From Eubacteriaceae bacterium CHKCI004 (GTDB lineage: Bacteria; Bacillota; Clostridia; Lachnospirales; Lachnospiraceae): DNA of 64,000 nt. Of the stretch, positions 58,283 through 64,000 are shown piece by piece. Both the position numbers and the translations under genes were made by a program. Under the pieces are notes generated by a model. It made no database searches and had not been told where the DNA came from. It saw only the letters and a program-made list of their open reading frames with translations. Position 1 is the first letter of the stretch; each line of letters begins with the position of its first letter. The stretch is from positions 1 through 64,000 of the forward strand of contig FCNR01000072.1 in assembly GCA_900016875.1 (NCBI GenBank). The letters are read 5' to 3'.

Positions 58283-58720
58283 TTAATTGTCTGTGGTACC
58301 CAATTGGTTGATGGTATCTTCCACGTATTCTTTGCACAACTGAATGGCTTCGGCGCACTCGTCCAATTCTTCCCGGGTTAATGTGGTGGAATCTTCTCCG
58401 GGATATCTGGTAGAAAAATAGAAGCCGTTCACAGAATTGAGGGATGTTATCAACGTTTTTGACATGGGAAGTTCCATGTTATGGCGCAAAAAATTGCTTA
58501 AAACACGCAGATTGTGACTTCTGAGAGCGCGTTCTTTGATGTCGCTCTCGCTGTCATTTTCTGGTTCGGCGTATTCTGCGATCAGATGTTTTAAATATCG
58601 TTCGCAGATACTCTGTGCCATGGCGCCCATTTCATTAAAAATCTGACCGTTGTCATAGGCAAACATAAAATATGCGTAAGAATTATCCGCAAAATCTTTA
58701 TATGTTCTCAGTTCTGCCAT
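58283..58720 (-). CDS. HEPN-domain toxin
   Basis: A 145-residue all-helical HEPN protein. The RX4H motif is seen as RALRSHN (about 68-74), followed by LRVLSNFL, the common HEPN pattern. In HEPN/MNT pairs the HEPN protein is an RNase-type toxin neutralised by AMPylation by its MNT partner. The start overlaps the MNT gene by 13 bp, so the two are translationally coupled, antitoxin first. Confidence 0.82.
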   Translation of the reverse strand: MAELRTYKDFADNSYAYFMFAYDNGQIFNEMGAMAQSICERYLKHLIAEYAEPENDSESDIKERALRSHNLRVLSNFLRHNMELPMSKTLITSLNSVNGFYFSTRYPGEDSTTLTREELDECAEAIQLCKEYVEDTINQLGTTDN

Positions 58721-59166
58721 AAAATCACCCCGTCTCGTTTGATCTTATTCAAAAAGAAATCATCATTTTTTGAAAACATTTCATCAGATACAATTTTTAA
58801 GTCCACATCTATGGGAATCTGTATATTTAATTCGGCTTTGATGTGGAGAATATCTTTAGTCGAAGGAATTTCTTTCACTACGACCAGTAAATCTATATCG
58901 CTTTCGTAACGTGACTGACTTCGGGCGCAGCTTCCGAATAAAATGATTTTCTGCAGAGAAAATCCGGTTTCCTTAATGATGGCGATACAGTTTTTAATGG
59001 CTTGGAGCTGTCTTGCCGATACCTGGCAGGATTTGTTTATGCCCTGCAGGCTCTCTTTTTTCATTTTATGATATAAAAGCATTGTTCTCACATCCCCGTC
59101 ATAATTGTGTGTTCTGATATAAATTGCAGGTACTGTTTCTCTGTATGAGAAAGAGAGATTCGTCAT
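58708..59166 (-). CDS. MNT-type minimal nucleotidyltransferase antitoxin
   Basis: A 152-residue protein with the nucleotidyltransferase core FGSCARSQSRYESDIDLLVVV: GS motif, then the DxD metal pair, and a third acidic residue in VDLKIV. A 45-residue N-terminal part is not typical of the family, so translation could begin at an internal ATG (59082 or slightly later). Overlaps the HEPN gene. The pair sits between the kinase operon and topoisomerase III and is transcribed against both. Confidence 0.8.
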   Translation of the reverse strand: MTNLSFSYRETVPAIYIRTHNYDGDVRTMLLYHKMKKESLQGINKSCQVSARQLQAIKNCIAIIKETGFSLQKIILFGSCARSQSRYESDIDLLVVVKEIPSTKDILHIKAELNIQIPIDVDLKIVSDEMFSKNDDFFLNKIKRDGVILWQN

Positions 59167-59322: not shown

Positions 59323-62300
59323 ATGAAAAGATTAGTATTAGCAGAGAAACCTTCTGTGGCAAGAGATATCGCCCGGGTTTTGGGCTGCAAAAAACAGACA
59401 AAGAATTATATAGAGGGCGATAAATACGTGGTCACCTGGGGGCTTGGGCATCTGGTGACGCTGGCGGACCCGGAGGGCTACGACAAGAAACTTAAGACCT
59501 GGCGGATGGAAGACCTGCCGATGATGCCGGAGCATCTGAAGCTGGTGGTGATTCCTCAGACCAGAGGACAGTTTCAGGCGGTGAAGAGCCAGATGGAACG
59601 CAAAGATATCTCTGAGGTGATCATCGCCACCGATGCCGGTCGGGAAGGTGAGCTGGTGGCGCGGTGGATTCTGGTGAAAGCCGGCTGCAAGAAACCGCTC
59701 AGGCGGCTGTGGATTTCCTCGGTGACAGATAAGGCCATCCGGGAGGGATTCGCTCATCTGAAAGATGCAAAGAAATACGATAATCTTTACCGGGCGGCAG
59801 TAGCAAGGGCGGAGTCCGACTGGCTGGTGGGTATCAATGCCACCCGGGCGCTGACCTGCAAATATAATGCGCAGCTTTCCTGTGGCCGGGTGCAGACTCC
59901 GACCCTTGCCATGATCGCGGCCAGAGAGGAAGAGATCCGGCATTTTGTGCCGAAGCCGTATTATGGTCTGCAGGCCCGGTGGAAGGGCGTTACATTTACA
60001 TGGAAGGAAAAAGGCAGCAACAGCTCCTCTGTTTTCTCAAAAGAGTCGAGAGATAAGGCATATGACCGGGCGAAGAACAGCGATGGAAAGGTGATTTCCG
60101 TCAAAAAGACAAAGAAGAGTTCCCATCTTGACGGTTTGTATGACCTGACAACTCTGCAGAGGGACGCCAACCAGCGCTTCGGATTCTCTGCCAAGCAGAC
60201 GCTGAATCTGATGCAGAGCCTTTATGAGCATCACAAGGTGCTGACTTATCCGAGAACCGATTCCCGGTATCTGACTACCGATGTGGCGGAGACGCTTCGG
60301 GAGCGGGTGTCGGCGGTGGCCGTGGGCCCGTACCGGACCTACGCCAATACCATTCTCAAAGGAAAAATCAAGACCGGACCGTCTTTTGTCAATAACAAAA
60401 AGGTGTCCGACCACCACGCCATCATCCCGACAGAACAGCCGGTGATTCTGGCGCAGCTCTCAGTGGATGAACGGAAGATTTTTGATCTGGTGGCGCGGCG
60501 TTTTCTGGCAGTGCTGTATCCGGCTTATGAATATGAACAGACGGCGGTGACCGTGGACTGCGGCGGAGAGACGTTTGAGGTGAAAGGAAATGTACCGCTT
60601 CGCATGGGATATAAGGAAGTGCTCACGGATCAGGACGGCGAAGAAGAAGCCGTGCTTCCGGCGTGGACGGAAGGCGAGCGGCTGGGCAGCCCGGCCCTGA
60701 AACAGACCGAGGGCAAGACCAAACCGCCGGCGAGATTTACTGAAGGCACTCTCCTGCAGGCCATGGAGAATCCGGTAAAATATATGCAGAGCAAGGATAA
60801 AAATGCGGCGAAAACCCTGCAGGAGACCGGCGGTCTCGGCACCGTCGCCACCCGGGCGGACATTATCGATAAACTGTTCCGTTCCTTCCTCATTGAGAAA
60901 AAGGAAAATGAAATCCACATGACGGGCAAAGCAAAACAGCTTCTTAATCTGGTACCGGAGGATCTGAAGAAACCGGAGCTTACGGCTCAGTGGGAGATGA
61001 AGCTGTCTAATATAGCGGCAGGAAAAATGAGGCAGAATACATTTATGAAGGAGATCCGTTCCTACGCCACAGAGCTTACGGAAGAGATCAAAGGCGGTGA
61101 GGGCACCTTCCGCCACGACAACCTGACTAACAAGCACTGTCCTCAGTGCGGCAAGCGGCTGCTGGCTGTCAATGGAAAACAGGGTAAGATGCTCGTCTGC
61201 CAGGACAGAGAGTGTGGATATAAAGAGCGGGTTTCCCGTCTCACCAACGCACGGTGTCCGGTGTGTCATAAAAAGATGGAGCTCATCGGCCAGAAAGACA
61301 ATCAGAAGTTTGTCTGCGTCTGCGGTCATAAAGAGTCCATGAAAGCATTCGAGGAGAGACGGAAACGGGAAGGAGCAGGCGTGTCGAAAAAGGATGTCCA
61401 GAATTATATGAAGAAAATGAAAAAAGAAGAAAAACAGCCGGTCAACAATGCGCTGGCGGACGCCCTTGCCAACATAAAACTGTGTCTGCTGCTGGCATTT
61501 GGAATCCTCTCGCTTATGACGGTGCGCACGGAAGCGGCGGATACGGCAGAAACAGCGGTCTGTGGGAGCAGCGCATCTGTCTCTGCTGCAGCGCAGAAAA
61601 TAAATGGCGACGGACAGCAGGTTGCCCGCGCGTTTCCAACGGATATGGACGTACAGCCGTTGATTGCCCACTCCATCAATTACGGTACAGTAAATGTATA
61701 TGCTGATTCTGCCCTGACACAGCAGATCGGGCAGGTGGATGGCGGCGGTCTCAGCCTCACTGCTTTCCGGGCGGAGAACGACGCCATATACGGTGACTAT
61801 GTCAGCGGAGATGTCCAGGGCAGCGGATGGTTTTCTATCGATACCTTTGTGGAGAATCCGGACTATGAACCAGTTTACGCCACAACCAGGGACGCCATGT
61901 ATGCCTATACTGACAGCAGTTTTGATCAGGTGCGCGGCACCATCAAAAAATATACAGGAATCATTGTGGTGAGCCGGGAAGGAAATAACCGGCAGGTGAT
62001 TTACGAGACCAGCGACGGTTATGAGATGGGCTGGATGACAGGCGATGCGTTTTCTAATTGTCTGCTTTATGACGGACGGGAGAAACAGGCTCTTTCGGAC
62101 GGTACCTATCTGTTTCAATGCGGTTATGCAGATGACGCCGATGGCGGCGCAGCCCTCGGAAGCCAGACCGGGCTTGCTGCTTATGATAGCTATACGCTGG
62201 AACTTACCTACGTTTCTGATAACGATTATTTTATAAAAAATACAGAGACAGGAGAGTATCTGTCTGTGAAGCGGGCATCCTCCGGGATGAACACGGCGGC

Positions 62301-63090
62301 TTCCAGCCAGGCGACTACTCCCGATGCAGCTTCTTCCGGCGATAATGCTTCCTGGACGCCAGTCTGGACAGATGAGCCGGATGAGGAATATGGTCTGTTT
62401 CATTTTAACCGGAACACAGGTTCCTTTGCTATTCAGAGTACGGCCTGCCGCCTGTTTCTGGCACAAAATGAACAGAGAGAATTAATCTTGCTTGAAAACC
62501 GTCAGAGCGATGCCAGTCATTGGAGAGTCAGCGCTGTGGAAAAAACGCTGAATCGGGCGCAGCCGATGGTATTTACCCAGTATGATCCGCAGTGGTGCGG
62601 GACTCCGTATGGGGGAGGCGGAAGTATGGGAACGGCTGGCTGTGGTGTGCTGGCTGCCGTCAATGCGGTTTACGCGCTGTCCGGTCAGTATATGGATGTG
62701 ATGGAACTGGCAGATTATGCGGTGGAGAAGAATTACCGGATTGTGGGCAGTGGTACAGATGACGGAATCTTTAAAGCGGCGTGCCAGAAATTTGGCAGAA
62801 AATATAATTTTGCCTGGGACGGCAAAAGTGGAAGTATTGATATGCTGAAAGAAAAACTGCAGGCCGGTGATGTGGCCATTGTTCATGTGGAAGGCCATTA
62901 TGTGGTCATTGGCGCTTACAGTAAAAAGAGAGATAAATATCTTCTGCTGGATTCCAATTATCTGCCGAAACGTGCTACCAGCGCTTTTGGCGACTGGATA
63001 TCCGTGGACCGGCTTCTTTCCGGCAGTCTTGAGGTGCAGAGCTTTTATTTCTATAAACTCAGGGACACGGATGGCGGAGCGATTTCATAG
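59323..63090 (+). CDS. topB: DNA topoisomerase III fused to an exported C39-like cysteine peptidase
   Basis: One uninterrupted frame of 1255 residues. Residues 1-690 are a type IA topoisomerase: TOPRIM (MKRLVLAEKPSVARDI), active Tyr309 in LTYPRTDSRYL, and zinc ribbons (CPQC...CQDREC, CPVC). At 718-740 the sequence turns into a signal-peptide-like helix (KLCLLLAFGILSLMTVRTEA). After it come SH3-like repeats (about 785-925), a ricin-like beta-trefoil region (about 930-1075) and a papain-like C39 domain (about 1085-1250; Cys1107 in TAGCGVLAA, His1192 in EGHYVVIGAY). No start codon with a ribosome site is found at the junction. Start at 59323 follows CGGAGAA. Confidence 0.85.
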   Translation: MKRLVLAEKPSVARDIARVLGCKKQTKNYIEGDKYVVTWGLGHLVTLADPEGYDKKLKTWRMEDLPMMPEHLKLVVIPQTRGQFQAVKSQMERKDISEVIIATDAGREGELVARWILVKAGCKKPLRRLWISSVTDKAIREGFAHLKDAKKYDNLYRAAVARAESDWLVGINATRALTCKYNAQLSCGRVQTPTLAMIAAREEEIRHFVPKPYYGLQARWKGVTFTWKEKGSNSSSVFSKESRDKAYDRAKNSDGKVISVKKTKKSSHLDGLYDLTTLQRDANQRFGFSAKQTLNLMQSLYEHHKVLTYPRTDSRYLTTDVAETLRERVSAVAVGPYRTYANTILKGKIKTGPSFVNNKKVSDHHAIIPTEQPVILAQLSVDERKIFDLVARRFLAVLYPAYEYEQTAVTVDCGGETFEVKGNVPLRMGYKEVLTDQDGEEEAVLPAWTEGERLGSPALKQTEGKTKPPARFTEGTLLQAMENPVKYMQSKDKNAAKTLQETGGLGTVATRADIIDKLFRSFLIEKKENEIHMTGKAKQLLNLVPEDLKKPELTAQWEMKLSNIAAGKMRQNTFMKEIRSYATELTEEIKGGEGTFRHDNLTNKHCPQCGKRLLAVNGKQGKMLVCQDRECGYKERVSRLTNARCPVCHKKMELIGQKDNQKFVCVCGHKESMKAFEERRKREGAGVSKKDVQNYMKKMKKEEKQPVNNALADALANIKLCLLLAFGILSLMTVRTEAADTAETAVCGSSASVSAAAQKINGDGQQVARAFPTDMDVQPLIAHSINYGTVNVYADSALTQQIGQVDGGGLSLTAFRAENDAIYGDYVSGDVQGSGWFSIDTFVENPDYEPVYATTRDAMYAYTDSSFDQVRGTIKKYTGIIVVSREGNNRQVIYETSDGYEMGWMTGDAFSNCLLYDGREKQALSDGTYLFQCGYADDADGGAALGSQTGLAAYDSYTLELTYVSDNDYFIKNTETGEYLSVKRASSGMNTAASSQATTPDAASSGDNASWTPVWTDEPDEEYGLFHFNRNTGSFAIQSTACRLFLAQNEQRELILLENRQSDASHWRVSAVEKTLNRAQPMVFTQYDPQWCGTPYGGGGSMGTAGCGVLAAVNAVYALSGQYMDVMELADYAVEKNYRIVGSGTDDGIFKAACQKFGRKYNFAWDGKSGSIDMLKEKLQAGDVAIVHVEGHYVVIGAYSKKRDKYLLLDSNYLPKRATSAFGDWISVDRLLSGSLEVQSFYFYKLRDTDGGAIS

Positions 63091-63104: not shown

Positions 63105-64000
63105 ATGAATAAAATAGAAGAGCTGCGGCGCGTGCTGCAGAGAATCAATCATAAAAGCTATGGAATGTATAAAAACCTGGCAGGATCCTATGACTGCGGC
63201 AGGTACATGCTGCACATTGACCACGTGCAGGGAGATCCTTTTGCTTCTCCGTCCCGTCTGCGGTTTGAAATCAGGAAGAATAATCATGGTTTTCCGGAGG
63301 AATACTGGCAGGAAAAGCACCGGAAACTGGCGCTGGAAGATCAGGTGCTCCGGCGGTTCAACGGATTTTTGAGGAAAATGGACAGGGGAAACATGGGGTC
63401 TGGCAAAAGCGGGAGAATTACAACCTGCCGCACCGGACAAAAAGTGCTGGAGAGGATTGCCGTAGTTTTCTCGGAAAATAAGATGGAACTTCGGTTTGAG
63501 ATGGGATTTCCGGCCAGAGGCAGGAGTATCCTTGCTGATGAGATGATAAAACTTCTTTTTGATACGTTGCCAAAGCTGGCAGAGGGATGTTTGTTTTATA
63601 ATAAATGGGACGCCAAAAGCCAGCAGAGACTGAAGGATGCGGTCTTTCTGGCGGATGACCAGAAGGCGCTGCGGGAAGAACTGGAGAAAAGAAAGCTTGC
63701 CGCCTTTGTGGCGGACGGATCCGTTCTTCCACGGGAGAGCGGTATTTCTGATCTGCCTATGAAAGGGGCGGTGGCATTTCAGTCACCGGAGACATTGAGG
63801 ACGCAGATTTGTCTTCCTCACAGAGGTGTCATCACCGGCATGGGGATTCCGGAAGGAATCACGGTCATTGTGGGCGGCGGTTACCACGGAAAATCTACAT
63901 TGTTAAAGGCTTTGGAGCAGGGCGTTTATAATCACATTGCAGGGGACGGCAGAGAGTATGTTCTGTCCCGGGATTATGCCATGAAAATCCGGGCCGAAGA
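63105..64000 (+). CDS. ABC-class ATPase-domain protein (partial)
   Basis: At least 298 residues, running off the window end. It starts 15 bp after the topoisomerase fusion, with AGAGGAAAAG as ribosome site. It matches the predicted ABC-class ATPase family found in Firmicutes: an N-terminal RNA-binding-like half (SYDCGRYMLHIDHVQGDPFASPS) and a P-loop GGGYHGKST (about 262-270). The Walker B and signature motifs lie beyond the window. Function of the family is not established. Confidence 0.85.
   Translation, partial: MNKIEELRRVLQRINHKSYGMYKNLAGSYDCGRYMLHIDHVQGDPFASPSRLRFEIRKNNHGFPEEYWQEKHRKLALEDQVLRRFNGFLRKMDRGNMGSGKSGRITTCRTGQKVLERIAVVFSENKMELRFEMGFPARGRSILADEMIKLLFDTLPKLAEGCLFYNKWDAKSQQRLKDAVFLADDQKALREELEKRKLAAFVADGSVLPRESGISDLPMKGAVAFQSPETLRTQICLPHRGVITGMGIPEGITVIVGGGYHGKSTLLKALEQGVYNHIAGDGREYVLSRDYAMKIRAE

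Follow-up and report, generated by a model that had tools for sequence, protein, structure and literature searches.

The DNA analysed here, a 64,000-nucleotide stretch of contig FCNR01000072.1 from Eubacteriaceae bacterium CHKCI004 (the window), contains a plus-strand open reading frame at 59323-63090 that runs for 1255 codons without interruption and joins a DNA topoisomerase III (TopB) to a predicted secreted cysteine peptidase (Table 1). The TopB half matches TIGR01056 with 788 bits (cut-off 515.75), covering residues 1-715, and PRK07726 with 820.5 bits (cut-off 597), a full-length topoisomerase III match above the curated cut-off; its Toprim (PF01751) and Topoisom_bac (PF01131) domains are both matched in Pfam. 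Tyr309, which we take to be the active-site residue, and E8, D104 and E108, presumably the Toprim residues of the topoisomerase III family, are unchanged across the seven fused proteins found in the genus. The same is true of the eight cysteines of two ribbon-like clusters (606-631 and 645-667), which probably bind zinc. The initial annotation, made from the sequence alone, had described a complete topoisomerase III with active tyrosine and zinc ribbons fused in frame to a peptidase, and the uninterrupted frame, the family scores and these invariant residues bear it out, with zinc binding as a prediction.

The C-terminal half matches PF13529 (Peptidase_C39_2) at residues 1093-1211, barely exceeding the cut-off of 24 bits (24.9 bits for the whole chain, 26.8 bits for the half alone), and the same family is matched in 15 of 15 relatives of this half at E 0.01. 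Its conserved Cys, His and Asp/Asn would form the catalytic set of a C39-like peptidase, for which peptidase activity is predicted. Modelled with AlphaFold from 15 sequences, the half (486 residues) reached a mean predicted local distance difference test (pLDDT) score of 84.4, and in a Foldseek comparison with the PDB beta-trefoils ranked first (best E 4.9e-5), while no cysteine peptidase appeared by name among the best 50 rows. RicinB_lectin_2 remains below its cut-off in the window protein (about 19-20.8 bits vs 25.6) and is matched in 6 of the 15 relatives at E 0.01. Of the regions named in the initial annotation, the trefoil is backed by the fold matches of a model of pLDDT 84 but not by the Pfam ricin-type score, and the C39-like peptidase by its PF13529 match but not by name among those Foldseek rows; the SH3-like label is not established, as the window chain has no Pfam SH3 match at E 0.1. 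A profile of the peptidase half found nothing among PDB sequences at E 1 or in NCBIfam at E 0.01, and a full-chain structure model of the fused protein of genome G008 was useless (mean pLDDT 40.4).

To place the fusion, 24 genomes of the genus Anaerobutyricum were searched, with topB and peptidase matches taken at E 1e-60. The stop-free join is present in seven of them, namely the window genome (G000), Eubacterium sp. An11 (G009), G022, G014, G002, G008 and G010, and because the same stop-free frame recurs in this way the join is more than chance. The comparison with related genomes that the initial annotation had proposed showed topB and the peptidase as adjacent but separate genes in six (G001, G004, G005, G006, G018, which is A. 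hallii DSM 3353, and G019), in which the topB stop lines up with Cys721 of the fused frame. One further genome, G007 (L147, G007:C269), has a joined region with in-frame TAG codons at joined-frame positions 715 and 836. The pair is not shown in the other 10: G003 has topB without a peptidase beside it and a 52% peptidase piece on another contig, and nine gave no close match to the window topB among the matches listed, eight of them carrying the peptidase alone and G020 only a paralogue of about 39%. Since many of these are incomplete metagenome-assembled genomes, absence of the pair is weak evidence. In a family-wide sample, an even draw of 397 genomes, the window topB is present in 114 at E 1e-180; an open frame longer than 866 codons occurs only in the window genome, the other 113 spanning 656-866 codons, and only 2 of the 114 belong to the window's genus.

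Beyond the fusion, G022 and G014 gave no second topB-like or peptidase match at the genus threshold. At the same threshold, what G002, G008 and G010 have in addition is limited to a topoisomerase match of 33-35% and a peptidase paralogue of 40-41%, and G000 and G009 also carry topB copies of 41-43% and a 41-42% peptidase paralogue. The window genome has three such topB copies (G000:C2, C20 and C46; L149, L150 and L151), of which that on C20 adjoins, by eye, conjugation-type genes such as one for a VirB4-like ATPase. Its peptidase paralogue (L148:725-1972, G000:C76; 415 amino acids) is the same kind of protein, 42% identical over window residues 851-1248, but differs in being a stand-alone gene with its own N-terminal signal-like sequence, as judged by eye; for this stretch, 16 of the 24 genus genomes have matches of about 39-42% at the genus threshold.

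At the junction, codons 717-721 read AAC ATA AAA CTG TGT (N-I-K-L-C), exactly as first reported. The separate topB genes end in ...ALANLKL-stop (ALSGLKL in G001); in the fused genomes the tail reads ...ALAN(I/L)KL and the hydrophobic core follows immediately, starting with CLLLAFG (G000 and G009, with close variants in G022 and G014), CLAVLFC (G008), VLVLFFG (G002) or MLVLFFG (G010). The seven fused sequences align without gaps from the TopB tail into this core. In the 13 sequences compared, the counterparts of codon 718 are Ile/Leu codons within the tail of topB itself, and codon 721 lines up with the stop of the separate genes, so ATA718 is an ordinary tail codon; the idea that it stands in place of a former ATG start was rejected.

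The segment behind the junction has the features of a signal sequence. In all seven fused proteins a hydrophobic run of 15-17 residues peaks at a mean hydropathy of 2.45-2.75 over 15 residues (the top value in the window's TopB body is 1.21). The 25 residues ahead of the core carry a net charge of +2 or +3, the 15 behind it one of 0 to -4. The small-x-Ala motif is cleaved by signal peptidase, and by eye such a motif follows the core in every case: T-E-A in G000, A-V-A in G009, A-S-A in G022, V-A-A in G014, A-Y-A in G002 and G010, and T-Q-A in G008. In the window the probable signal peptidase I site is located after Ala738. Judged by motif and hydropathy, all seven thus combine a single frame with an internal hydrophobic signal and a signal-peptidase-like site, in agreement with the signal-like segment originally noted between the halves. 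The separate peptidase genes encode an N-terminal signal-like sequence that ends at AFPxDM, the same point as in the fused proteins. In G000, G009, G022 and G014 (L033) a linker sits between the signal sequence and (A/M)FPTDM, and the alignments show that these four have a second low-complexity linker in the trefoil region.

Table 1. Features of the fused frame and of the gene that follows it (positions in the window)
Feature	Position	Strand	Basis
Topoisomerase III part, residues 1-720, Toprim and type IA core	59323..61482	+	TIGR01056, PF01131, PF01751; dN/dS
Codon of active-site Tyr309 (presumed) in YPRTDSRY	60247..60249	+	Invariant in 7/7 fused proteins
Two C4 zinc-ribbon-like clusters, Cys606/609/626/631 and Cys645/648/665/667	61138..61323	+	Eight Cys invariant in 7/7 fused proteins
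Putative internal signal sequence, with a basic tail that starts at Met696, a hydrophobic core (61480-61524, LCLLLAFGILSLMTV) and a probable cleavage site for signal peptidase I	61408..61536	+	Hydropathy, charge, motif
Junction codons 717-721, Asn-Ile-Lys-Leu-Cys	61471..61485	+	Codon 721 aligned with topB stop of separate-gene species
Variable low-complexity linker	61537..61629	+	Alignment; in G000, G009, G022, G014, not in G002, G008, G010
Predicted exported half: N-terminal beta domains, beta-trefoil, C39-like peptidase	61630..63087	+	Alignment of 15, model, trefoil fold matches, PF13529 in 15/15
Presumed catalytic Cys, model residue 338, GTAGCG	62641..62643	+	Invariant in 15/15; role from C39/papain-like fold
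Presumed catalytic His, model residue 423, GHYV	62896..62898	+	Invariant in 15/15
LLLDSN motif, Asp441/Asn443, presumed third catalytic residue	62950..62958	+	Invariant in 15/15
Next gene, running off the window: ABC_ATPase / ABC_N P-loop protein	63105..64000	+	PF09818, PF20446

An assembly or sequencing artefact might be suspected, five of the six other fused genomes being titled as metagenome-assembled, but the join is common to seven assemblies, including Eubacterium sp. An11, whose record is not so titled, and the window's own 99.98% complete genome. An indel or misread at the junction, raised in the initial annotation, is therefore very unlikely; a sequencing slip was rejected on the same ground, and an artefact of any kind is scarcely credible.

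The fusion also appears to be old. In a concatenated TopB and peptidase protein tree of 14 genomes, built with no outside root, a branch (support 82/96) separates the seven fused species and G007 from the rest, which makes a single origin likely. Separate TopB and peptidase trees do not contradict this arrangement and are less resolved, the peptidase tree grouping the same eight at 84/88. Synonymous distances (dS) between fused species range from 1.03 to saturation, so that synonymous sites are near or at saturation and the fusion cannot be called recent, as had been suggested. Both halves are under purifying selection, which is strong for topB among the fused species: the ratio of nonsynonymous to synonymous distance (dN/dS) in fused pairs is 0.025-0.078 for topB (computable in 16 of 21) and 0.056-0.178 for the peptidase half (computable in 14 of 21, the rest being saturated). 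In unfused pairs, 3 of 10 of which were computable, the values are 0.021-0.076 and 0.056-0.113, respectively.

These peptidase-half ratios, and the invariance of the catalytic-type Cys, His and Asp/Asn in 15 of 15 relatives, argue against a neutral or decaying fusion in which the peptidase half has ceased to be exported or needed; we regard decay as very improbable, although the two in-frame TAG codons of G007 would fit it. Recoding of TAG in G007 was considered and rejected, internal stops being no commoner there than elsewhere in the genus: stops with 100 or more open codons on both sides number 54 in 242,945 bases of G007 (20 stretches; 25 TAA, 18 TGA, 11 TAG) and 78 in 260,238 bases of other genus genomes (20 stretches), and TAG terminates 41 of the 222 mechanical open reading frames of 150 or more codons in G007. 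By eye, stops of all three kinds appear to interrupt a few genes of G007. G007 is ambiguous and was set aside from the fused set.

The gene pair of A. hallii DSM 3353 (L034) suggests how the join may have come about. It has the same genes, order and frame as the fusion, with 66-71% identity over the matched stretches, but carries a TAG at aligned Cys721 and a peptidase gene with its own Shine-Dalgarno sequence (-7.3 kcal/mol), ATG and n-region. This topB TAG lies inside TAGGAG ahead of the peptidase start (L034:7147-7169); the same holds for G001 (L082:7150-7172; -10.2 kcal/mol) and, by eye, for G019. TAGGAG is likely the Shine-Dalgarno sequence of the peptidase gene in A. hallii and G001. With the topB stop placed in this way, a single deletion could take out stop, ribosome site and start together, and we infer that the fusion arose by one deletion that removed these three elements and the n-region.

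We propose, with moderate confidence and from sequence comparison, that this old fusion, probably of single origin, acts as a polyprotein that is split at the membrane, in which (i) translation of topB would continue without a stop into the peptidase, whose signal peptide is now internal; (ii) TopB would fold in the cytoplasm, its basic tail taking the place of the n-region of the signal sequence; (iii) the hydrophobic segment would enter the Sec channel in an N-in/C-out orientation; (iv) the C-terminal half would be threaded to the outside; and (v) signal peptidase I would cleave just past the hydrophobic segment, leaving a TopB that ends in a short hydrophobic tail and releasing the trefoil/C39-like cysteine peptidase as a free secreted enzyme. 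As no stop separates the halves, TopB can be made only as part of the long chain. Given the purifying selection on topB and the lack of another topB match in G022 and G014, this chain presumably must yield working TopB.

The initial annotation had pictured, for the case that the frame is made as one chain, a membrane-tethered topoisomerase III with an extracellular peptidase. The hydrophobic segment and the charge bias would suit such an N-in/C-out anchor, and the frame forces one chain. However, a core of 15-17 residues followed by small-x-Ala in all seven fused proteins resembles a cleavable signal peptide, and the signal-like sequence of the separate-gene species stops at the same AFPxDM point. 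Signal-peptidase-like sites in all seven favour cutting over a chain that stays whole, and we consider the uncut chain improbable; it is likewise doubtful that the chain stays anchored at least for a functional time, with topoisomerase III at the inner face of the membrane and the cysteine peptidase working outside, linking DNA decatenation to the cell surface.

Internal initiation in the topB tail (e.g. at codons 687, 696 or 699), which would give a separate exported preprotein with a long n-region and leave the full chain mainly as the source of TopB, is possible though rather unlikely. In the window GTG687 (-8.6 kcal/mol) and ATG696 (-6.4 kcal/mol) are comparable in ribosome-site energy to the topB start (-6.6 kcal/mol) and to that of the next gene (-5.9 kcal/mol), and every fused species has some in-frame tail start with a fair Shine-Dalgarno sequence, the best values being -5.6 to -11.4 kcal/mol; such starts could supply some of the peptidase. 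Yet a scan of the tail found no start with a good ribosome site common to all seven, and a conserved internal start was rejected: GTG687 is confined to G000 and G010, G002 has lost ATG696, and ATG699, though present in all seven, is weak (-0.8 to -1.5 kcal/mol). Corrected for amino acids, synonymous conservation in the fused species over codons 694-711 gives z 1.7 (96th percentile), but in the unfused species the tail starts are similar and the synonymous excess is lower (z up to 1.2). The uncorrected values lie at the 98-100th percentile for codons 691-711 of the seven fused species and at the 97th for codons 692-706 of six unfused ones, and synonymous conservation is not decisive as a sign of an internal start. 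Because TopB has no stop of its own, internal initiation could not replace the full chain and could only add peptidase.

The fair tail starts are one of several points that weigh against the polyprotein proposal. Cleavage is read from a motif, and the window's T-E-A is less canonical than the A-Y-A of G002 and G010. The branch on which a single origin depends has a support of 82/96, and the TopB-only tree leaves G002 and G010 unresolved. The peptidase half evolves faster than TopB, its dN/dS in fused pairs reaching somewhat above that in the three computable unfused pairs (0.178 vs 0.113), and the TAGGAG overlap is not present in G004 and G005.

A polyprotein cut by signal peptidase I nevertheless appears to be the best-supported mechanism, for which the cytochrome b/c1 precursor of Bradyrhizobium japonicum provides the analogy. 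Its single gene, fbcH, reportedly yields two proteins because an internal signal sequence is cleaved at the membrane, and both are said to be partners of one membrane complex. The likeness is that one gene would give two proteins through an internal signal cut at the membrane, as predicted here; the difference is that our case unites a DNA enzyme and a presumed secreted peptidase that are not known to be functionally linked. For this precedent and for bacterial internal signal peptides, the open-access literature yielded only a citing reference, PMC6976685, which cites Thony-Meyer, James and Hennecke (1991, PNAS 88:5001) on the fbcH precursor. Searches of one open-access library revealed no topB-peptidase fusion. 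The C-terminal additions of type IA topoisomerases (zinc fingers, Topo_C repeats) are described as nucleic-acid-binding in the survey PMC9369019; they resemble the present case as C-terminal extensions of such an enzyme and differ from the peptidase half in that described role. The main text of that survey nowhere uses the words peptidase, transmembrane, signal peptide or fused.

As for the neighbouring genes, the ABC_ATPase gene comes after the peptidase in 14 of the 22 loci compared, some of which end early. Directly upstream of topB, on the minus strand, a HEPN-domain gene and a Polbeta/MNT nucleotidyltransferase gene (58283-59166; PF05168, PF18765) form a toxin-antitoxin-like two-gene pair. 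The other 21 loci, some of them without the upstream region, gave no match to it at E 1e-8.

If the polyprotein proposal is right, one frame, kept through the divergence of at least seven species, would supply both a DNA enzyme of the cytoplasm and a secreted enzyme. Where a stop overlaps the ribosome site of the next gene, one deletion could turn an operon into a polyprotein. Automatic annotation may label the whole product as DNA topoisomerase III and thereby hide the secreted enzyme. The proposal would further imply a topoisomerase III with an obligatory membrane-signal tail, making the placement of a topoisomerase at the membrane a testable question.

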